From: Armatimonadota bacterium
GTDB lineage: Bacteria > Armatimonadota > Zipacnadia > Zipacnadales > JABUFB01
DNA length: 64,000 bases
Direction of reading: 5' to 3'
Assembly (NCBI GenBank): GCA_013314775.1
Contig: JABUFB010000014.1
Span: 62,001-126,000 of the forward strand
Shown here in pieces: positions 29,629 to 44,032 of the stretch; position 1 is the stretch's first letter; each line of letters begins with the position of its first letter. The position numbers and the translations under genes are program-made. Below the pieces are notes generated by a model that saw only the letters and a list, made by a program, of their open reading frames with translations, was not told the origin of the DNA and ran no database searches.

Positions 29629-31074
29629 TCAACCCAACGCGAACTCGATTATCGTCTGTGACTTCGGAGGGAAGGTGAAACCCAGCGGATTGGTCGCCTC
29701 GCGGCGCTCCGATACCAGCGCCACCTCGTTGGGCGCGTTGAAGTCATTGTGGGCGTCGGCGCTGTCGGCGCTGAGGGTGCGCACAATCACCTCATTGCCC
29801 ATCTGTGGCCCAATCAGCGCGATTCCCGTGCCGATCTCCGCAGTGGGGTGCATGTTCACCACGCTCAGAATCGCCCTGTTCGTGGTCGGGTCCAGGGTCG
29901 CCACGGCGTCCAGATAGGGGATGGTCTGGCCTGGGACCCGGTCCCAGGTGAATCCCTCCACTTCGGTCCAGCAGTCGATCAGCACTGACCCGGCAACATT
30001 GGACGCCACCCAGAGCGGCCAGTAGATGCTCTGCAGGAACATGCCCTCGGGCCCCGCTTCAATAGCCGGGATGACGTTGACGGTCTGCGCCAGATTCGCC
30101 ATTTTCACCGTGCCGCAGTGCCGCTGCATCATGTGGATGAACACCGCATCGGCCAGGGCGTCGCGCAGTGTGTAACGCATGGTATGGCTGCCGGTGTGGT
30201 AGTTCACGTTCCACTCGTCGATACTCACCCAGATGGGTCGCTGCATGTTGCGGTCACGGCGGACGGCGTCGATGCAGCCCTCCACGTACTTGAGGTACCG
30301 CTCGAATTCATACGCGCCGGCGAGGGTGGTCAGGTATGGCTCGCTTTCGTGCGGTCCCCAGTAGTAGTGAAGGGCGGTGTAGTCGATGAACTCCGCAGTG
30401 CGCTCCAGCACTTCCAGGTCCCAGCGCATCGCGGGCGCATTGCCCGTGCCCCCGCAGGCCACCAGCCGGATGTCTGAGTCCATCCGCTTGATGACCTTCG
30501 CCCAGTCGCGCGCCTGCCACGCGTAGTCCTCGGCGGTCTTGTGGCCGATCTGAAAGTCTCCCCACAGTTCATTGCCCAGGCCCCAGTACTTTACACTGTG
30601 TGGCGCCTCCGCACCATTGGCCCGGCGCATGTCCGAGTACTGCGTCCCCTGCTCCACGTTGCAGTACTCGACCCAGGCGATGGCCTCGTCCATAGTGCCG
30701 TTGCCCATGTTCAGGCAGATGTAAGGCTCGCAGTTGACGGCACGGCAGTAGCGGATGAACTCGTCGGTGCCGAACGTGTTGGGCTCAATCGTGTTCCAGG
30801 CCAGCTCGGGTCGGGCATTGCGATGCGGGCCGACGCCATCTTGCCAATGGTAGCCGGAAGCAAAGTTCCCGCCCGGCCAGCGCAGGATGCCCGGCTTGAG
30901 TTCTCGGATCGCTTCCATCACATCGCGCCGGAACCCGTTTTCATCGGCCAGACGCGAGCCCGGGTCGTAGATGCCTCCATAGATGCAGCGGCCAAGATGC
31001 TCGATGAATTGCCCATAGATGTGGGGGTGAATCTCGCCCAGCCTGCGGTCGACGTTGATGACGATGCGGGCCAT
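29629..31074 (-). CDS. Alpha-L-arabinofuranosidase, GH51
   Basis: 481 residues. The start MARIVINVDRRLGEIHPHIY and the following GQFIEHLGRCIYGGI are classic GH51. The acid/base Glu lies in KYWGLGNELWG (about residue 168) and the nucleophile Glu in VSIDEWNVNY (about residue 287), with spacing like characterised enzymes. LRWPGGNFASGYHW is the substrate-pocket loop. It removes terminal arabinofuranosyl residues from arabinan or arabinoxylan fragments. There is no signal peptide, so it acts on imported oligosaccharides in the cytoplasm. It is the last gene of a minus-strand run with sfsA 77 bases upstream. This is the most precise substrate clue in the window and points to plant hemicellulose or pectin side chains. 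Confidence 0.92.
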   Translation of the reverse strand: MARIVINVDRRLGEIHPHIYGQFIEHLGRCIYGGIYDPGSRLADENGFRRDVMEAIRELKPGILRWPGGNFASGYHWQDGVGPHRNARPELAWNTIEPNTFGTDEFIRYCRAVNCEPYICLNMGNGTMDEAIAWVEYCNVEQGTQYSDMRRANGAEAPHSVKYWGLGNELWGDFQIGHKTAEDYAWQARDWAKVIKRMDSDIRLVACGGTGNAPAMRWDLEVLERTAEFIDYTALHYYWGPHESEPYLTTLAGAYEFERYLKYVEGCIDAVRRDRNMQRPIWVSIDEWNVNYHTGSHTMRYTLRDALADAVFIHMMQRHCGTVKMANLAQTVNVIPAIEAGPEGMFLQSIYWPLWVASNVAGSVLIDCWTEVEGFTWDRVPGQTIPYLDAVATLDPTTNRAILSVVNMHPTAEIGTGIALIGPQMGNEVIVRTLSADSADAHNDFNAPNEVALVSERREATNPLGFTFPPKSQTIIEFALG

Positions 31075-31151: not shown

Positions 31152-31847
31152 CTACAGATCGAGATCAACCGGCACGCGCTGTACTGGCTCGACCGTCTCA
31201 GGAGTGACGAGGCACCGGATCGCCAGCACCTGGACACCCGCTTTGGCTGCGGCACGGAGCATCGCGGCGAATTCCGGATCAGTATCGCGGTTCGGCGCGA
31301 AGACCCGCGTGTCTTCGCGCTGGATCATGAAGGCCACGGCGGTAGAGTACCCGGCCCGCTGGGCGACCACCAGCTCTTCGAGATGCCGTGCACCGCGTTT
31401 CGTGGGAGCGTCGGGAAACCGGGCCACATCGCCGATCCGCAAGGTGCAGGACTTGGTCTCCACCAGCCAGGCTCCTGTATCGCAGGCAAGTTCGAGGTCC
31501 AGGCGGCTTGCTCCCACGGTGACTTCCCGCCTGACGTGGGAGCACGCCCCGAGTTCGGGGGCAAGGCCGGCCACGAGCGCCTCCATGAACAGGTCGGGTG
31601 GAAGTCGGCTATCGAGGCAGACCAGGCTTTCACCGTGGCGTACAAGCACGACATCGTGGGTGGTGACCCGGCCCTGTCCTTCAGATGGGCGGACCCAGAG
31701 TTCCGCACCCTCATGCAGCAGCTCCTGCATGCGCCCAGGGTTGGGCATGTGGCAGTAGACGCGGGTCCCCTCGAGTTCCGCCCAGGTGGCGAAGCGGTTC
31801 GGACGGGTTATGAACCGGGCGGCAAGCAGAGGCTGGCGAAGGAGCAT
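31152..31847 (-). CDS. sfsA: SfsA family DNA-binding / nuclease protein
   Basis: 231 residues, the normal family length. Signature segments are RFITRPNRFATW, YCHMPNPGRM, VRHGESLVCLDSR, ASRLDLELACDTGAWLVETKSCTL, of which the last part carries the Asp-Glu-x-Lys nuclease-like centre, and FPDAPTKRGARHLEEL. SfsA was named for sugar fermentation stimulation in E. coli and contains an OB-like DNA-binding part plus a PD-(D/E)XK nuclease-like fold; its cellular role is still unclear. Its start lies about 20 bases downstream of the PfkB stop, suggesting it is part of the same minus-strand transcript. Confidence 0.92.
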   Translation of the reverse strand: MLLRQPLLAARFITRPNRFATWAELEGTRVYCHMPNPGRMQELLHEGAELWVRPSEGQGRVTTHDVVLVRHGESLVCLDSRLPPDLFMEALVAGLAPELGACSHVRREVTVGASRLDLELACDTGAWLVETKSCTLRIGDVARFPDAPTKRGARHLEELVVAQRAGYSTAVAFMIQREDTRVFAPNRDTDPEFAAMLRAAAKAGVQVLAIRCLVTPETVEPVQRVPVDLDL

Positions 31848-31867: not shown

Positions 31868-32914
31868 TCAGATGCCCTCGAACAGTCGCGCGTGATCCTG
31901 AAACCGACGCAGAACTTCAGATCGCGTGGTGGTCCCGGTGGTGCCAATCTGCTGTACCGTGAGTGATGCCACGCAGTTCCCCACAATTGCGGCTTCGCGC
32001 GGGGAGGCGCCCGCGCACATCGCAAGCACGATGCCGGATGTGCAACTGTCACCAGCGCCCACGATGTCGACAGGCGGTGGGGAGACGATTCCAGGCACGT
32101 GCGTCACACCGTCTCCGTCGAAGACTACAATGCCCTCGGGCCCCGCGGTCACAAAGACGGGGCGGTGGTTGCGTGCGGCCAGTTCGGTCCCATATCTGCG
32201 CGCGTCTTCGGCACTCAGTTCGGCTTCGGTCCCGGTGAACCCGCAGGATCTCGCCGCCTCGATCTTGTTTGGCTTGATCATCACATCGCGGAAGAGTCCG
32301 ATATTGGCGCGCGAATCCGCCAGGAAATGCACCTGCGGGTTGTCGCGTGCGATCTGGGCAATCGCTTCCCGGACGCGATCAGTGACGACGCCGAGGTCGC
32401 GCTGCTCCACTTGGTCGGCGATGATCACGGCCTGCACCCGGGGGAGCAGGGACCGGAGACATTCCAGGATGGCATCTTCTAGGTCAGGGGGAGTGGGCCG
32501 GCGGTTCTTGACGTCCAGCCGGTTCAATTCGCGCTCCATCCCGGACTTGTCTCGCAGCATCGGCTTGGTGTAGGTCGGAGTGAATTGGTCGGGGCGACGC
32601 AGAAGGGCGGTCATGTTCACTCCGGTGCGCGCCAGTCCCTGGCGCAGGTCGAAGCCTTCACCGTCGTCTCCCGTGAAGCCGACCGCGAAAACCTCTCCCG
32701 CTTCCAGGGCGGTGAGGTTGTTGGTGACGGTACCCGCCGCGCCGGGGCTGAGCCTGCGGGCAACCACCTGGTAGGCGTCGAGACCGGTCTCCACGGAGAC
32801 CTCGGTCAGGGAGTCGTCAAGTACGAGGTACTTGTCCAGGAAGAAATCGCCGAGGACAGCGATGGACGCACCAGGAAACCCGGCCAGAAGCTCTTCCATC
32901 CGCTGCGAAGTCAA
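31868..32914 (-). CDS. PfkB-family carbohydrate kinase (RfaE-kinase-like)
   Basis: 348 residues. The N-terminal GASIAVLGDFFLDKYL and PGAAGTVTNNLTAL correspond to the sugar-binding lid and GG motif of ribokinase-type kinases. The C-terminal DIVGAGDSCTSGIVLA is PfkB signature 2, with the catalytic Asp in GAGD. It most resembles the kinase half of the heptose enzyme RfaE/HldE, but there is no cytidylyl- or adenylyltransferase domain. It would phosphorylate a sugar or sugar phosphate with ATP. Its start codon overlaps the stop of the deoxyhypusine-synthase-like gene by four bases, so the two are translationally coupled and probably act in one pathway. Confidence 0.8.
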   Translation of the reverse strand: MTSQRMEELLAGFPGASIAVLGDFFLDKYLVLDDSLTEVSVETGLDAYQVVARRLSPGAAGTVTNNLTALEAGEVFAVGFTGDDGEGFDLRQGLARTGVNMTALLRRPDQFTPTYTKPMLRDKSGMERELNRLDVKNRRPTPPDLEDAILECLRSLLPRVQAVIIADQVEQRDLGVVTDRVREAIAQIARDNPQVHFLADSRANIGLFRDVMIKPNKIEAARSCGFTGTEAELSAEDARRYGTELAARNHRPVFVTAGPEGIVVFDGDGVTHVPGIVSPPPVDIVGAGDSCTSGIVLAMCAGASPREAAIVGNCVASLTVQQIGTTGTTTRSEVLRRFQDHARLFEGI

Positions 32915-33885
32915 CCTTGACCCTCCAGGCGCGCCACCACCCGCCGGTACAGACTCGGGAACGTGACGCGGTGGTCGCCCCTGAAATAGAAGCTCTCGCC
33001 GCCGTCCTGCACGGTGCGCACGAGAATTGTCTTCCAGGGACGGTAGTAGTAGTGCGGGTTGGACTTCTCGGGAGCCGCGCCGGGGTTCTCACCGAGGTCT
33101 AACAGGTCGAAGACGGCGGTAGTGAAGTGCGCGATCTCGCGCCCCTCCTGGAAGGCCACATTTCGCGCCATGCTCAGGGCCTTCAGGTACACTTCGGGGC
33201 CCATGACCGCGGTGCCGAAGTTGAGCATCACGCCGCCCTCGAGACGCGTGATGGTGTCCGTCACAGTGAGGAAATCCCGGTAGCTCGCCAGCCCCGTCAG
33301 TGCACCGTTGAAGTTCGGGTGCTCGTGGATGATGTCGCTGCCAATGCCGACGTGCACGGTGACCGGGACACCAAGCTCATACGCGGCGGCGAAGATGCTC
33401 ACATCCCGGTGGGGGAAGTCGCGCTCCACGATCATCTTGCCCACGGCTTCGCCGAAACCCAGCCCCGCCTGGGCACCTTGGTTCACCGCATCGTTGATCC
33501 ACCCTGTTTCCTGCCAGAGGCCGAACTCCCCGGTGCGGATGTACCGGGCAACGCTCTCGGTGGTCGCCCCGATGAGTGCGAACTCAAAATCGTGGATCGC
33601 GCACGCGCCATTGACGCCGATGTGGGTGATGATGCCCCGACGCAGCAGGTCGATGATGAACCGCGAGTTTCCCTGCCGGATCACGTGCGCCCCCATCATC
33701 AGGAGGATTTCGCCGTTGCGCTGCCGGGCATCGACAATGCGCTGCGCGAGACTGTCCAGTTGTGGGTGGGCATAGTCGGGCAGGTCCGCATCCAGTTCCA
33801 TGATGGCGGACAGGTCCAGATCATGCTCACGCTCGGCAAGCGGTTTGACGATGAGGCGGCTGCGATCGAACTGGGCATACGGCAT
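32911..33885 (-). CDS. Conserved protein resembling the deoxyhypusine synthase superfamily
   Basis: 324 residues. The segment LMMGAHVIRQG, IIDLLRRGIITHI, then VNGACAIHDFEFALIG recalls the NAD-binding start of deoxyhypusine-synthase-like proteins. Later LEGGVMLNFGTAVMGPEVY parallels their second nucleotide-binding strand. VTVHVGIGSDIIHEHP supplies further conserved polar residues. I am confident it is a conserved enzyme-like Rossmann protein but only moderately sure of the family. True deoxyhypusine synthase modifies eIF5A, which bacteria lack, so a different reaction is expected. It lies between a HAD phosphatase gene and a PfkB kinase gene on the same strand and overlaps the latter by four bases, which suggests phosphorylated-sugar metabolism. 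Confidence 0.55.
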   Translation of the reverse strand: MPYAQFDRSRLIVKPLAEREHDLDLSAIMELDADLPDYAHPQLDSLAQRIVDARQRNGEILLMMGAHVIRQGNSRFIIDLLRRGIITHIGVNGACAIHDFEFALIGATTESVARYIRTGEFGLWQETGWINDAVNQGAQAGLGFGEAVGKMIVERDFPHRDVSIFAAAYELGVPVTVHVGIGSDIIHEHPNFNGALTGLASYRDFLTVTDTITRLEGGVMLNFGTAVMGPEVYLKALSMARNVAFQEGREIAHFTTAVFDLLDLGENPGAAPEKSNPHYYYRPWKTILVRTVQDGGESFYFRGDHRVTFPSLYRRVVARLEGQG

Positions 33886-33992
33886 GTGCGGGTGATCGCC
33901 TTTCCGTTGGGGCCCATCGGGGGTCTTGACATGCCCCGCATGGCGTGCTTTCCCAATGTCTCGCTTCGGTCTGTGGCGCAGGGAACCCGATC

Positions 33993-34850
33993 TTATTCCT
34001 CGGCGAATAGGTAGGCAAACAACCGCTTGTATTCCCGGAAGTCGGGCACGATGATATCCGCGCCGTACTCAATGAGCCGGTTACGCTTCCATTCATCAAT
34101 GCCGGCACGGTTCTTTTCATCCACTGCCAGACCCACGGCAATGCCGCCCACCTTCTTGGTCTCCTCGATCTCCACAAAGCCGTCGCCGAAGCCCGCGAAT
34201 TCGCTGCCCTTGAGATTGTGATCGGTGATGATCTTCTCGATGATCATGGCCTTGGAGTAATTCTTGTAATCATCAATGGCGCCGTAGATGTTTTCGCCGA
34301 AGTACGGGTGGAGGCCGAGGGATTGCGACTCATCCAGCACATACGGCCGGTCGGTCCCACTGGCGAGATACAAGGTGACGCCTCGTCCGTGCAGGTATTC
34401 CACCATCTCAAGCGCCCCAGCCACCGCCATCTCCTCCCGGGTGTAGCGCCCCTCCTTGAGGCCTTCGACCCGGTCCTTGATGCGTTCCCAGAGAAGCTGG
34501 AGGTAGTCCCACTTGTACTCCAACGGATCCTTGGCCTGACCACCGCGCTTCGTGACATGCTCGGCAAACTCCATCATCTGGTAGATGGTCTGCTTGCCCG
34601 TGAGGCGCGTAACAAACTCGTGGACGATCTCATGCAACTGCTCGCGGGTCTCGCCGGTGTCGAGATCGGCCAGGATGTCGACCATCATGGGGATCATTAC
34701 TTCCTGCCAGCCCTCGCGGATCAGAGAGATGGTCCCATCGAAGTCGAAGAGCGCAAAGCGGATCTGGCCGCGCTCGATGTCCTCATTGATGATCTCGATG
34801 TACTCGGCGCCCTCGAGCATCCGTCCACGCGGGAACTGCCTGTACTCCAT
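33993..34850 (-). CDS. HAD-family phosphatase
   Basis: 285 residues. Motif I is FALFDFDGTIS (Asp nucleophile and Asp+2), motif II is LYLASGTDR, and motif IV is EFAGFGDGFVEIEE. A large alpha-helical cap (about residues 55-150, containing GKQTIYQMMEFAEH) makes it a C1-capped HAD hydrolase of the phosphoglycolate-phosphatase/beta-phosphoglucomutase type. KNYSKAMIIEKII holds the likely motif III Lys. It would dephosphorylate a small phospho-metabolite in the cytoplasm. AAGGAG precedes the ATG, and a promoter lies about 80 bases upstream. It is the first gene of the minus-strand unit with the deoxyhypusine-synthase-like protein, PfkB and SfsA. Confidence 0.8.
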   Translation of the reverse strand: MEYRQFPRGRMLEGAEYIEIINEDIERGQIRFALFDFDGTISLIREGWQEVMIPMMVDILADLDTGETREQLHEIVHEFVTRLTGKQTIYQMMEFAEHVTKRGGQAKDPLEYKWDYLQLLWERIKDRVEGLKEGRYTREEMAVAGALEMVEYLHGRGVTLYLASGTDRPYVLDESQSLGLHPYFGENIYGAIDDYKNYSKAMIIEKIITDHNLKGSEFAGFGDGFVEIEETKKVGGIAVGLAVDEKNRAGIDEWKRNRLIEYGADIIVPDFREYKRLFAYLFAEE

Positions 34851-36701: not shown

Positions 36702-38957
36702 ATGTCATCCATGTGTGTCGCCCGTTGCACCGCGATCCTCGTAATGCTCTGCGCCGGAGCCGCCCTTGGAGCGGGTTCGGTGCCTGGCGTGAGTGTGCGC
36801 TTCCTGGACGGCAAGCTGTACGAGATACCCACCGGTAAAGCCGAAACGCTTGTGCAGGATGACCTGTACCCGGATTATCCATTCCACACTCCTCTCCCCG
36901 CCGTGCCACTCGACCAGCTGCGCAGTTTCCTTGGTGCCGGCGGTCCAAGGCTTGCCCTGTCCGCCGCCCAGCTATCGGAGATACACGCCAGGGCTGCGAA
37001 TGATAAGGCTGTGAAGGCATCGCTCGATGCCCTGGTCGCACAGGCCGAGAAGTTTCTGGACGGCGCGGTTCCACGCTACCACCCTTCGCCTTTCCACTGG
37101 ATTCAGGCACCCCCGGAGGAGTCACGTCAGGCCGAGGAGCAGGCAGCGCGGCTCTCGATGATGCGCCGCTCCTGCGCCCTCGCATTCGCGCTCACAGGCG
37201 AGGAACGATTCGCGAGACGGGCGTGGGAAGCGTTTCAGGCCAATGTCGAGCATTTCTACACCTACGGCGTGTTCCGCATGCCTTTCTCCTGGCAGTCGCC
37301 GTGGGACTCGGGCTATGAACTCTATGACGCTGCTGCTGCCTATGACCTGATCGCGCACTGGGAAGCGCTCACTCCGCTGGACCATGCGCTGGTGTTCACG
37401 TACCTGCGCCGCCTGGGAATGCGGGTGGCGTACGCGGTGGAGCTGTCGCCTGTCATCGGCAGCCAGCAGGCGATGTGGACCTGCAATCTCGGCTGCCTCG
37501 CATATTACGCGCCGGGTATTCCGGAATCGGCATCCTGGCGGGAACTCGTGGACGAGCGCATCGAGTCGGTGATGGCGGATTTCATGACCGATGGAGGCCA
37601 CATCGAGTGCGATCCGTCGGCCCATTCCCTGGCGCTTGAGCACTTGCTGCGCTATGCGCGTGTGCGGGCGGCCAGCGGCGACCCCGACTTCATCTCCCGG
37701 CCCTGGGGGGCAGGTCAAGTCACACTCGAGCGCTGCGTGGACTGGCTCGCCAAAATCGCCACTCCGCTTGGCGAAACCCCCGCGGTTGGAGACTCGCCCT
37801 GTCGGCCACTGTCGCTGGCGCACGGATACCTGGACGGCATTCGCATGTTCCGCCGAGCAGACTGGCTCACGGCAGGTCGCATCAGCACGACGGATGCCGC
37901 CGTTCCGGAGCTGCTCCCCAACGACCTTGCTCCGGCGAAGCCGCAGTTCACCTCGCTTTGCCTACCCGATACAGGCTTCGCAGTCCTGCGCGACGGCTGG
38001 GGCACTGACGATGGCTATCTGCTGCTGGACTACGGGCGTCACGGCGGTCCTTTCGGGCATTTCGACAGGTTGGGGTTCACCCTGTACGCGAATGGTCAGC
38101 CCTGGGTGCTGGACGCCGGTCCCGCGCCCCACCCGTCCGTTCACGCCGAGCTGCACCAGTCCTGGCATCGTCAGACCCGGGCGCATAACACGGTGATGAT
38201 TGACGACGCCAGCCAGTCAGCAGCGGACGGCAAGTTCGTTGTCTGGCAGACCCACCCGGCCTTCGACCTTGTGGCCGCAGAGCACGAGGGCTACCCGGAC
38301 GCGATCCACCGCCGCACTGTCTTCCACCCACGGAACGGGTATTTTCTGGTTTTCGATGAAATCGTCAATTGTGGGGACAGCCGGCGTGAACTCCAGTGGT
38401 TGGCGCATGTCAACGGTACGCGGGAGTCAGGTACGGTAGGGCGGATCGTGTTCTGGCGGGACGACCGGCAGGGGCTGGCGCTTGTCCCTCCGCGCGAAGG
38501 CGGGCTGCGCGGCGTGAAGATCGATCAAGGCCTTTGCACTGGTTGCGATGGCGTGCTGGCCAATATCCAGCCCGGCGCGGACAGCGGCAGCTGGACGCCC
38601 GGATCGCCAGGCTGGGGATACATCCCCTTCATCGGGCTGCGCAAGAGCGTAGCACCGCGCTCAGTTCAGACTTTCTGCGTGGCCCTGGTGCCTTTCACGG
38701 GCAAGGAGCCCGATGTCACGGTGGAGTCTTTCGAGGGCAAACTGGCCTACGGTGTGCGGGTGATCATTGGCGATACCGTGGATTTGCTGGTGATCCGCAA
38801 GCGTGGCATCGAGCCGGGCACCATGTCCCGCGATCTGCCGGTGGCAACCAACGCCCGTTATGCGTTCGTGCGGGAGCAGGCAGGAAAGACCACGGTCATG
38901 GAGTGGGTAGACGGTGACAGTCTGTGGATCGAGTCCGACCTGCGAACCGGGCGGTGA
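36702..38957 (+). CDS. Secreted heparinase II/III family polysaccharide lyase
   Basis: 751 residues. The signal peptide ends near residue 25 (MLCAGAALGAGS); an alternative ATG at 36711 would shorten it by three residues. Residues about 85-400 form an alpha/alpha barrel (AWEAFQANVEHFYTYGVFR, IGSQQAMWTCNLGCLAYY, HIECDPSAHSL). Residues about 405-640 match the heparinase II/III-like beta-sandwich (DTGFAVLRDGWG, LLLDYGRHGGPFGHFDRL, RAHNTVMIDDASQ). The Tyr-x-x-His and His-rich segments fit the catalytic region. Such enzymes cleave uronic-acid glycans such as heparin, alginate or oligoalginate by beta-elimination. The family call is firm and the substrate is open. It converges on the pilin-like gene with a 9-base gap. 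Confidence 0.8.
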   Translation: MSSMCVARCTAILVMLCAGAALGAGSVPGVSVRFLDGKLYEIPTGKAETLVQDDLYPDYPFHTPLPAVPLDQLRSFLGAGGPRLALSAAQLSEIHARAANDKAVKASLDALVAQAEKFLDGAVPRYHPSPFHWIQAPPEESRQAEEQAARLSMMRRSCALAFALTGEERFARRAWEAFQANVEHFYTYGVFRMPFSWQSPWDSGYELYDAAAAYDLIAHWEALTPLDHALVFTYLRRLGMRVAYAVELSPVIGSQQAMWTCNLGCLAYYAPGIPESASWRELVDERIESVMADFMTDGGHIECDPSAHSLALEHLLRYARVRAASGDPDFISRPWGAGQVTLERCVDWLAKIATPLGETPAVGDSPCRPLSLAHGYLDGIRMFRRADWLTAGRISTTDAAVPELLPNDLAPAKPQFTSLCLPDTGFAVLRDGWGTDDGYLLLDYGRHGGPFGHFDRLGFTLYANGQPWVLDAGPAPHPSVHAELHQSWHRQTRAHNTVMIDDASQSAADGKFVVWQTHPAFDLVAAEHEGYPDAIHRRTVFHPRNGYFLVFDEIVNCGDSRRELQWLAHVNGTRESGTVGRIVFWRDDRQGLALVPPREGGLRGVKIDQGLCTGCDGVLANIQPGADSGSWTPGSPGWGYIPFIGLRKSVAPRSVQTFCVALVPFTGKEPDVTVESFEGKLAYGVRVIIGDTVDLLVIRKRGIEPGTMSRDLPVATNARYAFVREQAGKTTVMEWVDGDSLWIESDLRTGR

Positions 38958-38966
38958 CCACGCCCT

Positions 38967-39401
38967 TCACTCGTTGTAGAACGCCCAGCCCCTTTCACTC
39001 CAGACTTTCGAGCCCCCATAGCCGCTCTCCGGGTAGACGCGATCAGACCGGTACACCAGAGTGCAGAAGAAGCTGTACCCGTGGGGGTAGAGATCTCCCG
39101 GCAGCTTGAGTCTCAGCTCGAAGTCCTTACCGCCGGCTTCCGGTGTGTAAACCCAGTCCTGCGTGGCGACTTCGGGTTTCGGCGGCAGATCCTCGATGAA
39201 GCCCGGCTGCAATTCCTCGAGCTTGTCCGGGTATCTGCCCCGCTCCGCCTGGTACTTCTCCAGCGCTTCGACAATCGGCGCAGCGGCATCCACCAGGCGG
39301 TGCAGTGTCGTCTGGCTTCTTTCCCATGCGCCCGTGAGGGCGTGGGTGCGCCATACAATTGCGCCCACGATGATGGTGTCGACGATCAGGATGATCGCCA
39401 C
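38967..39401 (-). CDS. Membrane-anchored pilin-like (GspG C-terminal-type) protein
   Basis: The first conventional start is GTG at 39401, giving 144 residues beginning inside a hydrophobic stretch. The frame is open upstream to the preceding gene and encodes a basic segment (PRRPKLDRRPLYII) that would complete a normal N-terminal anchor. AGGAG there is seven bases from an ATC codon at 39461, so the real start may be unusual. After the helix, ALEKYQAERGRYPDKLEELQ and the following LPPKP match the globular C-terminal part of type II secretion major pseudopilins. There is no prepilin peptidase site. It lies 36 bases after the large CBM/TIM-barrel gene, probably in one transcript. Confidence 0.6.
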   Translation of the reverse strand: MAIILIVDTIIVGAIVWRTHALTGAWERSQTTLHRLVDAAAPIVEALEKYQAERGRYPDKLEELQPGFIEDLPPKPEVATQDWVYTPEAGGKDFELRLKLPGDLYPHGYSFFCTLVYRSDRVYPESGYGGSKVWSERGWAFYNE

Positions 39402-39497
39402 GATGATGTAAAGCGGCCGGCGATCCAGTTTCGGTCGCCGCGGATTGTCTGCTGAGGCGATGTCGGTACTCCTCCCCTTGTGGGCAGTTGCTCGTGT

Positions 39498-42400
39498 TTA
39501 CTCCTCGACGTATTCCACCCAGGCGCGCACCCCGAGTTCGCGCGTCTGCTGGGCGCCGCTGGGCTGCTCCACACGAATCTCCGCGGTTCCCGCGGCTGGT
39601 GTGCCCAGGGCGCCCGATACGGTCACCGGCGTGGCGCTCTCCGACGTCTTCAGTGTCGCCTGACCACTGGCCGGAATCAGCAGCCACTCGGCCTCGGCGA
39701 GGCTGGCGTCTGCCTGCAATGTCGTCTCAACCATGCGAAACACCGGCGCAGGTGTGCGCGTGTCAGTGATCCTGCGCAACGCCTTGAGGCCGTCTATCAA
39801 CACCGTGCAGGTCTTACCGCCTGGGATCGCATTGAAGTAGAAGGTGAGCGACGACACGGTGTCGTACTGGATGGGTTCGGGGCTTGGCACTTCCGGCCGT
39901 TCGAGCAACACGAACCGCCAGCCGGTGAAGTTGATGTCGATGTAGTAATCCTGCGCCCAGTGGCCCGTGCCCCCGCGCGGCTGGATCTTGAGTTTGGCGC
40001 CCGATGAATCCCCGTGAATCCACACGCCGAGGGCCACGTGCTCGCGCAGGTCCAAGGGTGGGTCGAAACGCTTGCCCACCGCCGACCAGCCGCCATCATC
40101 CGTGCGCGTGCTGGTGGCGGTATACCGGGCGCAGTGCTGGCCAACTCGGGCCCCCTCGGAGACCAGTTCCAGCTGCTGCGTCACGCCGGAGCTTGTGTTG
40201 CCCGCGAGATTCGTGCCCGCCGTGTGCTGGGCAAGGCCTCCCGCGCCTTTGGCGAGATAGGCCGTGATGTCCTCGAAGTCCTCGAGCATCCAGGCGTTCT
40301 CGTCCGCGTACTCGGGCCCGGGGGCGACCTGCCTCCCCGCCCGGACCTCCAGGCCGAGAACAGGCTTGCCCAGCGTTGGGTCCACCTGCACCGTTACCGT
40401 CTGCTCCGGCGAACCTGGCAGAATCACGACTTCCTTGCCGTAGTTGACCCGGCGGAAAGTGGGGTTGGTCGCGTCGCCCGTCAGGCGGTACTCTTTGCCG
40501 GGGATCTTGAAATCCTCCCGCAATGCCGGGTGCAGCGTGCCCTTGATTCGCAAGTCCTCATAGGCCCGAATGATCCGGATGTACTCGTCCATCCGGGGAT
40601 TGTCGCGGATCGTCTGCGGATTAGTCTGGATGCTGAAGGAGCAGTTGAAGCCCAGCGCTTTCTGGCAGACATACTCGATCTGGTCCGGAGTCACCTGTTG
40701 GCCGTAGATGTAGTACCATCCGAGGTCCAACGGGAGATAGTTGTTCGAATACCATTCGAAGCGGGGGAGGCGTTCGTCGAGATACCACTTCAGGTCTCCG
40801 TGGCCGTCGGCCGATGCGTACCGGGCAAGCATGTGCCATGACCACGGCGACACGCTGCTGGCCTGCAGAAGCATGTCATCGCGGCCCAGGGCATCCCAGT
40901 ACGCCTTGTGCAGCAGTGCATTGTAGCGCCAGTGCGGTCCCTTGAGGCGCTCGGAGCCGTCAAAGTAGAGCATGTCCGCGCCGCAACCATTCGCCACCGC
41001 CGCCAGGTTCCGCGCTACCTCCTGAGTGAGCCCCTTATCGGGATCATGCAGGAAGTACCCGTACCCACGCATCATGTGGGAGATGCGGCTGCCCTTCGCG
41101 TGCGCGGCGGCGGTAGTCCCGTACATCCCCCGTCGGCAGTCCTTGAAGCCGTAAGGCTCCTCGAGAGAGGTCGAGCCGTAGAAGATCAACTCATCACCAA
41201 TGCGCACCACCGCCGAATCGCCCAGGTATCCGCCTTCGATGGCCGGGAACTTCGTTGGTGGTGTTGGGGTGGGGATGAAGGTCGCCTTCTCATCGACCGC
41301 TTCAGCGAGAGCCGTGAACTCGTCCATCACCAGGCGGTCGTCGGGCACTGGGGTAAGATAAGGGTCGTTATTCGAGATCGCGGCGGCCAGGAAGTGCAGA
41401 CCGCAGCGGAAACCCGCAGCGTGGAAGCGGTCCACCGCATCCCTCAGGTCGTCCAGCCCCCTCGGGAAGCGCTTGCGGTTGATCGGGTAGTGCCCCAGGC
41501 TCTCGGACCAGCTCTCCTGCCCGATGAGGATGGTGCTGAACCCGCACTTGCGCGCGAAATCGATCACCATGTCCACGTCGTCGAGCCCCATCGAAGTGAT
41601 GAACAGGTACGAGCGGTTGATGTCGTCGGATTCTTTGTTCCACACACCGCCGAAATGAGGGCTGGGCAGACCGGCGGCGAGTTCCACTTCCACCAGACCC
41701 CTCGCCAGTTCGTCCGATGGGCAGACCATCAACGCGACACCGGCGTCCTCAGTGCCGTATTCGGCCACGCAGTCGGCGGAAAGCACCGTGGCCGGGAGCG
41801 AGAAATACTGCTCCAGCGGGTCGTCCATGCTCGCGAGAACCCTGTCGTCGCCGTGGGGTTCGGGCTGGCCGTCCAGTTCAGCCAAGGCGCGGATGTCATC
41901 CACGAGGCACTCGACCTCGCTCTGGCGGGGGAGACCGTTGAAGTAGATATTGCACTGGGTGATGTGGGTATAGTCGATAGGCTCGCCTTCGGGGCGCGGC
42001 AGTTCCACGTATTTCCAGCCGGTGAAGTCGATGGTCACGTAGTAGTCGCGCCAGTGTTTGCCGTCGGTAAGCTGGATCTTCAGCGCCTGCCCCTTGCCGT
42101 CGCCCTTGATCCATGCTCCGATGCCCGCGTGTCCACTGATGTCGAGGGGGCTCGGGAAGGTCTTGTACCAGCACGTCCAGCCGATCTGATCGGTAGGGTT
42201 GCGGCCGACAAACCTGCCGGCGCCGGGGCCGACCTTCGCCTCAGTGACATACTCCGACTGGGCGCTGGCGCCCGGGGAAGCCGATCCGCCACGCCGCATG
42301 CTGGGGTCGGCGGCGATGCCGGCGCGAACCGACGGACTCGTAGGTATGACGCCGATGGTCGTCCGCTCGCCGCGCAGCGCGTTGAGCGTATGGGCGACGG

Positions 42401-42785
42401 TGCCTTCCCTGGGCACAAACAAGCGGCACAGGACGATGGCCTTCATCGGCGCCGCTGTCTGCAGGTCCGCCAGTTTCAGCAGCACGTGACCGCGACCGCG
42501 CGAGACCCGGAATGTGCATGAGCCGCCGTCACGTGCAAAGCGGACGTGAAGCATGTCACCGTCAAGCCTGATGCTCTCGGGAGGGAACACGGTGTTGCCT
42601 GCGGTCAGCTCGAATGCGGGGAGTGTCGACTTGCAGAGGTCCTCTCCCGTGGCATGGGCAACAAGCGATTCCGTCCGCCCATCAGCGCTAAGTCTCCAGG
42701 TGAACGCTTCGGTCTCGAAAGTCACCTGAGCCATGCAAGGCGCCAGGACCAGAAGAAGACAAACTGCGATCATGCGAGCAGCCAT
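39498..42785 (-). CDS. Large secreted TIM-barrel protein with two related carbohydrate-binding-like domains
   Basis: 1095 residues from the ATG at 42785, which has GGGAGG upstream and is followed by a signal peptide (CLLLVLAPCMAQ). Residues about 20-130 are beta-rich. Residues about 180-300 and 830-1000 are two copies of one galactose-binding-like module: compare IGAWIKGDGKGQALKIQL with LGVWIHGDSSGAKLKIQP, and DYYVTIDFTGWKYVELPRPE with DYYIDINFTGWRFVLLERPE. Residues about 370-740 look like a glycosidase TIM barrel (FSTILIGQESWSESLGHYP, GFRCGLHFLAAA, GADMLYFDGSERLKG). I cannot name the GH family. The C-terminal 90 residues are a beta domain. It is divergent from the diguanylate cyclase gene. 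Confidence 0.65.
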   Translation of the reverse strand: MAARMIAVCLLLVLAPCMAQVTFETEAFTWRLSADGRTESLVAHATGEDLCKSTLPAFELTAGNTVFPPESIRLDGDMLHVRFARDGGSCTFRVSRGRGHVLLKLADLQTAAPMKAIVLCRLFVPREGTVAHTLNALRGERTTIGVIPTSPSVRAGIAADPSMRRGGSASPGASAQSEYVTEAKVGPGAGRFVGRNPTDQIGWTCWYKTFPSPLDISGHAGIGAWIKGDGKGQALKIQLTDGKHWRDYYVTIDFTGWKYVELPRPEGEPIDYTHITQCNIYFNGLPRQSEVECLVDDIRALAELDGQPEPHGDDRVLASMDDPLEQYFSLPATVLSADCVAEYGTEDAGVALMVCPSDELARGLVEVELAAGLPSPHFGGVWNKESDDINRSYLFITSMGLDDVDMVIDFARKCGFSTILIGQESWSESLGHYPINRKRFPRGLDDLRDAVDRFHAAGFRCGLHFLAAAISNNDPYLTPVPDDRLVMDEFTALAEAVDEKATFIPTPTPPTKFPAIEGGYLGDSAVVRIGDELIFYGSTSLEEPYGFKDCRRGMYGTTAAAHAKGSRISHMMRGYGYFLHDPDKGLTQEVARNLAAVANGCGADMLYFDGSERLKGPHWRYNALLHKAYWDALGRDDMLLQASSVSPWSWHMLARYASADGHGDLKWYLDERLPRFEWYSNNYLPLDLGWYYIYGQQVTPDQIEYVCQKALGFNCSFSIQTNPQTIRDNPRMDEYIRIIRAYEDLRIKGTLHPALREDFKIPGKEYRLTGDATNPTFRRVNYGKEVVILPGSPEQTVTVQVDPTLGKPVLGLEVRAGRQVAPGPEYADENAWMLEDFEDITAYLAKGAGGLAQHTAGTNLAGNTSSGVTQQLELVSEGARVGQHCARYTATSTRTDDGGWSAVGKRFDPPLDLREHVALGVWIHGDSSGAKLKIQPRGGTGHWAQDYYIDINFTGWRFVLLERPEVPSPEPIQYDTVSSLTFYFNAIPGGKTCTVLIDGLKALRRITDTRTPAPVFRMVETTLQADASLAEAEWLLIPASGQATLKTSESATPVTVSGALGTPAAGTAEIRVEQPSGAQQTRELGVRAWVEYVEE

Positions 42786-43093
42786 GTTGGCCTCCCGGAA
42801 CATCCGATTGTCCTGCCCACTGGGGCGGACGGTCCGCACGGAAAGGCGATTTCGCCGGCTTGGCGCGCGTAACCTGCCGTCCGGCACTGCCGCCGACGCT
42901 TGGCACAGATCGGTGGTCCAGACGGGCCTCAAGATGACGGGCGCATGGTCGAAGTAGTAGATGCTGCACCCGTCGGCGGTCCCTGCCCATCCCCACCATG
43001 CTCTCGGGTGGGACGGCGGCCTCGCGGGCATTGTGGGCACGATGCTTGACGCTCTGGGCCCCGCGCGGGATCTATCACACTCCTGGAGCCCCA

Positions 43094-44032
43094 ATGAGAA
43101 TACTTGTCGCAGAGCAGGATCCGCTGGCTCTGGGCGCGATGCAGAGATGCCTGCACAGTTGCGGGCACGAACCGGTCGCCTTCGCGGACGGCAAGGCGGC
43201 CCTTGCCTGCTTGCGGGGAGACGATGCCCCCCGCATCGCGCTTCTGGGCTGGCAACTGCCGGGGCTCACGGGTCCGGAGGTTTGCCGGCGCCTGCGTGCG
43301 GATGCGGATGCCGGTTACGTTTACGTGATCCTTTTGACGGAGCGGGGAAGCAAGGAACAGCTTGTGCGAGGGCTTCAGGCAGGGGCCGACGACTATCTGA
43401 GCAAGCCCTTCGACCCTTCGGAACTTGAGGCGCGAATCCAGGCCGGGGCGCGCATCGTCGAGCTTGAGGCCCGGCACATCCAGGCCCAGAGCCTCCTGCG
43501 CCTTCAGGCCACGCGCGACGGGCTGACCGGTCTGTGGAACCGCAACAGTATTCTGGGGATACTTGATTGCGAGGTCGTCCAACGCACCGACGATGGCACC
43601 GATCTCTGCGCGATCATGTGCGACATCGATCACTTCAAGCGCGTCAATGACACCCTGGGACACATGGCGGGGGATGACGTCCTGCGCCATGTGGCTGCGC
43701 GGATTGCCTCGTCGTTGCGCAGTTGCGACAGTGTCGGGCGTTTCGGAGGCGAGGAGTTCCTTTGCGTCTTGCCGGGATGCGGCCGTGACCACGGGATAGC
43801 GGTTGCCGAGCGCATGCGCCGGCACGTGGCTGCTTGCCCCATCGTTCTGGAACGCTCCGCCATCGAGGTCACCCTGAGCTGCGGGCTTGCAGACTTGCGT
43901 GGCCTCGGGCTCCAGGATCCACGCGCCCTGCTTGCCGCGGCAGACGATGCCCTCTACCGGGCGAAAAGCGACGGCCGAGACCGCGTGGTCGCCGCGGTCC
44001 CGGCCTGGATGGAACTGCGCAGGACGGGTTAG
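43094..44032 (+). CDS. Diguanylate cyclase with degenerate receiver domain
   Basis: 312 residues from the ATG at 43094. Residues 1-120 are a CheY-like receiver (ILVAEQDPLALGAM acidic pocket, VILLTERGS, DDYLSKPFDP). The phospho-acceptor position in IALLGWQLPG is Gly52 (codon GGC) where family members have Asp, so it cannot be phosphorylated there. Residues about 140-312 are a GGDEF domain with DGLTGLWNRNS, DIDHFKRVND and FGGEEF, plus an RxxD inhibitory site (RSCD) five residues before GGEEF. Cyclic-di-GMP synthesis with product inhibition is therefore expected. The input signal must differ from Asp phosphorylation. No partner kinase adjoins it; a hybrid kinase is encoded 5.4 kb away. Confidence 0.85.
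   Translation: MRILVAEQDPLALGAMQRCLHSCGHEPVAFADGKAALACLRGDDAPRIALLGWQLPGLTGPEVCRRLRADADAGYVYVILLTERGSKEQLVRGLQAGADDYLSKPFDPSELEARIQAGARIVELEARHIQAQSLLRLQATRDGLTGLWNRNSILGILDCEVVQRTDDGTDLCAIMCDIDHFKRVNDTLGHMAGDDVLRHVAARIASSLRSCDSVGRFGGEEFLCVLPGCGRDHGIAVAERMRRHVAACPIVLERSAIEVTLSCGLADLRGLGLQDPRALLAAADDALYRAKSDGRDRVVAAVPAWMELRRTG

Follow-up and report, generated by a model that had tools for sequence, protein, structure and literature searches.

A conserved protein family with a deoxyhypusine synthase-like fold, encoded between phosphatase and kinase genes in many phyla, as a candidate participant in a variant heptose-phosphate pathway

In the genome of an Armatimonadota bacterium, a gene whose family name gives no function lies between a HAD phosphatase gene and a PfkB-family kinase gene. 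What does its product do, and do the three genes serve one pathway? We analysed the locus within a stretch of 64,000 nucleotides of DNA (hereafter the window) and compared it with related genomes. All three open reading frames share the minus strand. The HAD gene (33993-34850, 285 aa) comes first; after a gap of 107 nt follows the middle gene (32911-33885, 324 aa), which overlaps the last gene, PfkB (31868-32914, 348 aa, TTG start), by four bases. The coordinates bear out the single direction and the four-base overlap reported in the initial annotation. That annotation also described a clear promoter. A scan confined to the sigma-70 consensus found no site on the minus strand ahead of the HAD gene, and on this basis we rejected a strong promoter there. 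Downstream, 20 nt past the PfkB stop codon, begins an sfsA-like gene (31152-31847, minus strand) whose name comes solely from its translation. It may share the cassette's transcript; outside the genus it is not a conserved partner of the cassette. Genes of polysaccharide-breakdown type (arabinofuranosidase-like and heparinase-like, also from translations alone) flank the cassette at 29629-31074 and 36702-43094.

The middle protein belongs to the GSU2086 family (NCBIfam NF052581), which it matches over its full length (395.7 bits against a cut-off of 250; residues 5-314 of 324). Beyond this family, ArgZ-C, TIGR00300 and homospermidine synthase resemble it only weakly. The TIGR00300 ornithine cyclodeaminase model reached 25.9 bits (E 4e-6), short of its cut-off of 410.8, and an hhalign comparison of the GSU2086 family with TIGR00300-like proteins gave a probability of 95.6. 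The deoxyhypusine synthase (DHS) model PF01916 did not match the window protein at E ≤ 1. Across 108 family members, PF21570 (ArgZ-like_C_2nd) matched 94 and PF01916 weakly matched 12. One family-profile match (L151:1585-2802, genome G053) is a different protein of 405 aa whose start resembles the family loop, and it differs from the other TIGR00300-like matches.

An AlphaFold model of the middle protein, built on the 108-sequence alignment, had a mean pLDDT of 96.9 and a pTM of 0.94. Its neighbours by Foldseek and VIA-align were the C-terminal domains of ArgZ/AgrE, the Methanococcus LOR/SDH protein 3c2q and deoxyhypusine synthases, with VIA Z scores of 20.1 to ArgZ (210 residues) and 19.4 to DHS (254-268 residues). 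The likeness to the DHS superfamily proposed in the initial annotation therefore holds at the level of the fold. The nearest fold is that of the ArgZ/AgrE C-terminal domain and TIGR00300 (6juy, 6lrg, 3c2q), with only 14-18% identity in the structural alignments. The middle protein is predicted to have a DHS/ArgZ-C fold, yet by family model it is no DHS. Its gene context is that of sugar phosphates, unlike the arginine or ornithine context of ArgZ and TIGR00300. On account of these family-model results and the unsuitable gene context, we rejected both deoxyhypusine synthase and ornithine cyclodeaminase as its function.

The alignment of the 108 members contains 26 invariant residues. Two loops, GAH...G and NGA..HD, are nearly or fully invariant, and they align with the matching loops of archaeal DHS and of ornithine cyclodeaminase-like proteins from related genomes. 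In DHS, these loops bind NAD. Lys235 is invariant (108/108) and Lys285 is conserved in 104 of the 108 sequences. The position of the imine-forming catalytic lysine of DHS falls near Arg290 in one alignment, where the C-terminal part is uncertain, and that lysine is not clearly conserved in the middle protein. The most likely chemistry would be that of an NAD-dependent, redox-neutral epimerase or isomerase, which we infer from the fold and from the cassettes, which carry no other gene for a redox partner.

The Pfam matches of the flanking proteins agree with their labels in the initial annotation. The PfkB protein matches PF00294 (5e-26), and the GAGD catalytic motif is visible in its sequence. 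Its best NCBIfam match is TIGR02198 (rfaE_dom_I; 135.7 bits, below the cut-off of 345), for which it is also the best match within its genome, and its only PDB match under 1e-8 is 4e84, the heptose-7-phosphate kinase HldA. Judged by sequence, the kinase is probably HldA-like, though it lies far under the HldA cut-off. The HAD protein matches PF00702 (3.5e-11) and belongs to an uncharacterised subfamily with a C1-cap and a DxDGT motif. Among 57 orthologues, the motifs DFDGT, SGT, K200 and GDG..E are invariant, and motifs I-IV of an active enzyme are present in the invariant residues D36, D38, T40, S164, K200, D223 and E227 (alignment numbering of window:33996-34850). The nearest solved folds to its AlphaFold model (pLDDT 93.8) are the AlnB phosphatase and beta-phosphoglucomutase.

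A genome scan retrieved at least 80 GSU2086 loci, at about 56% or more identity to the window protein, from Armatimonadota, Chloroflexota, Planctomycetota, Acidobacteriota, Firmicutes, Deltaproteobacteria, candidate phyla and an archaeon. These are the closest relatives rather than the whole family, in which context frequencies may differ, and the adjacency counts are approximate because open reading frames were called mechanically. Among the matches listed, both partners are in place, HAD upstream and PfkB downstream, in 42 of the 69 loci with both flanks; in 10 of the 69 neither partner is adjacent. Counted separately, also among the matches listed, HAD is upstream in 49/74 and PfkB downstream in 53/75. 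Homologues standing mostly without the two partners, which the initial annotation had named as evidence against a pathway, were not what we saw. The three-gene order that it proposed to look for is conserved across many phyla, including Armatimonadota, Chloroflexota, Planctomycetota, Acidobacteriota and Firmicutes, and in 15 of 57 loci the middle gene again shares four bases with PfkB; the arrangement is thus not due to chance. A HAD orthologue was encoded elsewhere in the genome in 7 of 10 genomes with an isolated copy and in 3 more that lacked only the adjacent HAD (10/13). Other sugar genes recur nearby. Among the matches listed, 28 of the 80 loci have an SIS-domain (GmhA-like) gene no more than 5 kb away, with GmhA models matched where checked, and ROK kinases lie near 13 of the 80. 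Frequent runs are PfkB-ROK-SIS and SIS-ROK-HAD.

The known system that the cassette most recalls is the ADP-heptose pathway (GmhA, HldE/HldA, GmhB, HldC and HldD), to whose HldA the cassette kinase is related. The classical pathway has no GSU2086 step, whereas in other genomes GSU2086 stands among the ADP-heptose genes or is fused to them. In an archaeon (L108) and two Firmicutes (L105 and L117), it occurs with a GmhB-type phosphatase, HldC-HldA-type fusions and GmhA-like SIS genes. In a deltaproteobacterium (L114) it lies beside an HldC-HldA-type fusion and SIS genes, and in a Desulfovibrio (L119) it is accompanied by nucleotidyltransferase and SIS genes. These five genomes belong to an archaeon, Clostridia and Deltaproteobacteria. 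The orthologue of the cassette HAD was not found in any of them, and in them HAD and the heptose context are mutually exclusive. The unrelated HAD subfamily of the cassette stands where GmhB stands elsewhere, and we propose that it functionally replaces GmhB. In a quick tree with SH-aLRT support only, L105 and L117 nest with Firmicutes cassette loci and L108, L114 and L119 group apart. As the loci with heptose context fall within the cassette clade, the enzyme has probably exchanged its partners on at least two occasions.

A second subclade has the order GmhA-GSU2086-HldA-HldC (L036), with GSU2086 next to GmhA in L030 and next to HldA/HldE-type genes in L032 and L037. Gene fusions join the same functions: GSU2086 with a GmhA-like domain in Ornatilinea apprima (L046, 561 aa), GSU2086 with HldC in a member of the Latescibacteria (L157; the HldC part scores 192 bits, above the cut-off of 181.5), and SIS with HAD in L101 and L075. 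Both the HAD/PfkB cassette and the GSU2086 fusions are findings of the present analysis. A literature search on a named pathway, the GSU2086 family, and phosphoheptose isomerase with deoxyhypusine synthase yielded nothing useful beyond one study. In Tn-Seq of Geobacter sulfurreducens on electrodes, the log2 ratios were -3.1 for GSU2085 (hldE), -3.2 for GSU2086 and -3.7 for GSU2087 (gmhA), in a library with little polarity according to its authors (PMC5585712). The shared phenotype is consistent with a single pathway; it is no demonstration of the reaction.

Further genes were observed beside the heptose-context clusters. Radical-SAM-like proteins of one family adjoin them in a Firmicute (L105:10592-11653), the archaeon (L108:11602-12681) and a deltaproteobacterium (L114:9805-10872). 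Genes for a ribulose-phosphate-3-epimerase-like protein and a TalC-type fructose-6-phosphate aldolase lie beside two clusters (L105:5244-5924, L108:6782-7426) and possibly supply sedoheptulose phosphate.

The initial annotation held against a heptose link that a nucleotidyltransferase and GmhA were absent. This is true of the locus but not of the genome. A GmhA-like gene (C8:230592; 194.7 bits, cut-off 209.45) has a ROK kinase gene immediately after it (C8:230.4-232.0 kb for the pair), and at C11:210158 there is an HldC-like gene (169.4 bits, cut-off 181.5), so the genes regarded as missing exist at other loci, each slightly below its equivalog cut-off. The best GmhB-like match (C6:113279) scores 155.2 bits against a cut-off of 178 and another scores 134 bits. 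With these two proteins in the genome, the cassette HAD is not the sole candidate phosphatase, and we dropped the idea that it is the only possible GmhB there. The best HldD match, at 131.5 bits, is below the cut-off of 274.6. The same genome carries a second GSU2086 copy (G000:C8:882219-883172; L002, L023) that is 43% identical and has no recognisable sugar genes adjacent; sister copies of this paralogue occur in related genomes. The initial annotation had suggested a self-contained phospho-sugar route. What holds up is a conserved phospho-sugar unit in which kinase and phosphatase flank an enzyme that may depend on NAD. Self-containment is not supported, given the nearby SIS genes, the fusions to GmhA-like and HldC proteins, the clusters with GmhA, GmhB, HldC and HldA, and the related genes elsewhere in its own genome.

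We put at about even the chance that a variant heptose-phosphate pathway has this cassette at its core. The GSU2086 protein is probably an unrecognised extra step in a pathway to an activated seven-carbon sugar, and on the best reading its substrate is a heptose-type phosphate and its place lies after a GmhA-type isomerase and before an HldA-type kinase. Its membership of the pathway is well supported; the substrate, NAD use, epimerase chemistry and order of steps set out next are what we infer. A GmhA-type SIS isomerase, encoded elsewhere in the window's genome, would convert a ketose phosphate, for example sedoheptulose 7-phosphate, to an aldoheptose 7-phosphate. GSU2086 would then alter this aldoheptose phosphate, most likely by oxidising one carbinol with NAD+, isomerising or epimerising the sugar and handing the hydride back. 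Next, the HldA-like PfkB kinase would place a phosphate on the anomeric carbon, and the HAD phosphatase, in the role of GmhB, would strip the distal phosphate to leave a sugar 1-phosphate, which HldC or another nucleotidyltransferase, where present, could activate. Several points count against a heptose scheme: the recurrent ROK kinase does not fit it, the PfkB protein is far below the HldA cut-off and HldC is absent in several genomes. No HldC match was found in 5 of the 25 genomes searched (G061 Ornatilinea, G067, G068, G075 and G084), so the end product in those cassette genomes cannot be ADP-heptose by the usual route, and we rejected ADP-heptose as a universal product. HldD exceeded its cut-off in only 1 of the 17 genomes tested.

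There is a lesser but real chance that the cassette instead serves the catabolism or salvage of a rare sugar, which would be transported, phosphorylated by the ROK kinase, isomerised by the SIS protein, changed by GSU2086 and phosphorylated once more by PfkB, while HAD would dispose of surplus phosphate ester. Such a route would give the ROK kinases a role and would accommodate the cassette genomes without HldC, and in Ornatilinea the GSU2086-SIS fusion and three sugar-ABC-transporter-like genes lie opposite the cassette. However, the transporter link is not general, aldolase genes do not recur in the cassettes, biosynthesis is the better fit for a phosphatase as constant first gene, and the partner swaps are to biosynthetic heptose genes.

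Two further alternatives concern the chemistry of GSU2086, and we consider both improbable. The protein could transfer hydride by means of a nickel-pincer nucleotide, the cofactor that NCBIfam states for TIGR00300, a distant relative of GSU2086 by the profile comparisons given above. LarC is present in 55 of 61 relatives' genomes. It is also common in relatives without GSU2086, and it was not found in G046 and G060 (96-97% complete), both of which have full GSU2086 genes. We rejected obligate use of this cofactor because LarC does not strictly co-occur, and retain it as a minor rival; solved AgrE and DHS structures of the same fold have NAD+ as ligand. Alternatively, GSU2086 could carry out DHS-like C-N chemistry on a sugar phosphate, in which a keto or imino intermediate, amine transfer and reduction would give an amino or N-linked sugar. 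The known reactions of the DHS superfamily are amine oxidations and transfers, and the conserved Lys235 and Lys285 would suit this chemistry. Against it, we noticed no gene for an amine donor or an aminotransferase among the genes that recur nearby, and the lysine that DHS uses for catalysis is not clearly in place. That these are merely co-directional sugar genes with no shared pathway, as the loci with neither partner adjacent might suggest, is already disfavoured by the locus survey and very hard to credit, given the conserved order and overlap across phyla, the fusions, and the partner genes held elsewhere in most of the exceptions.

For the family as a whole, the identity of about 56% or more across many phyla and an archaeon indicates that the chemistry of GSU2086 is probably the same everywhere. 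We suggest, tentatively and at somewhat under even chances, that GSU2086 is a new enzyme type, a DHS-fold, NAD-dependent sugar-phosphate epimerase or isomerase that works with HAD, PfkB, SIS and ROK proteins in many phyla, lineages without HldC among them, to produce a heptose 1-phosphate (or its nucleotide) not yet described. If GSU2086 acts in a heptose-phosphate pathway, it would add a step that textbooks lack and would extend the DHS fold from amines to sugar phosphates.
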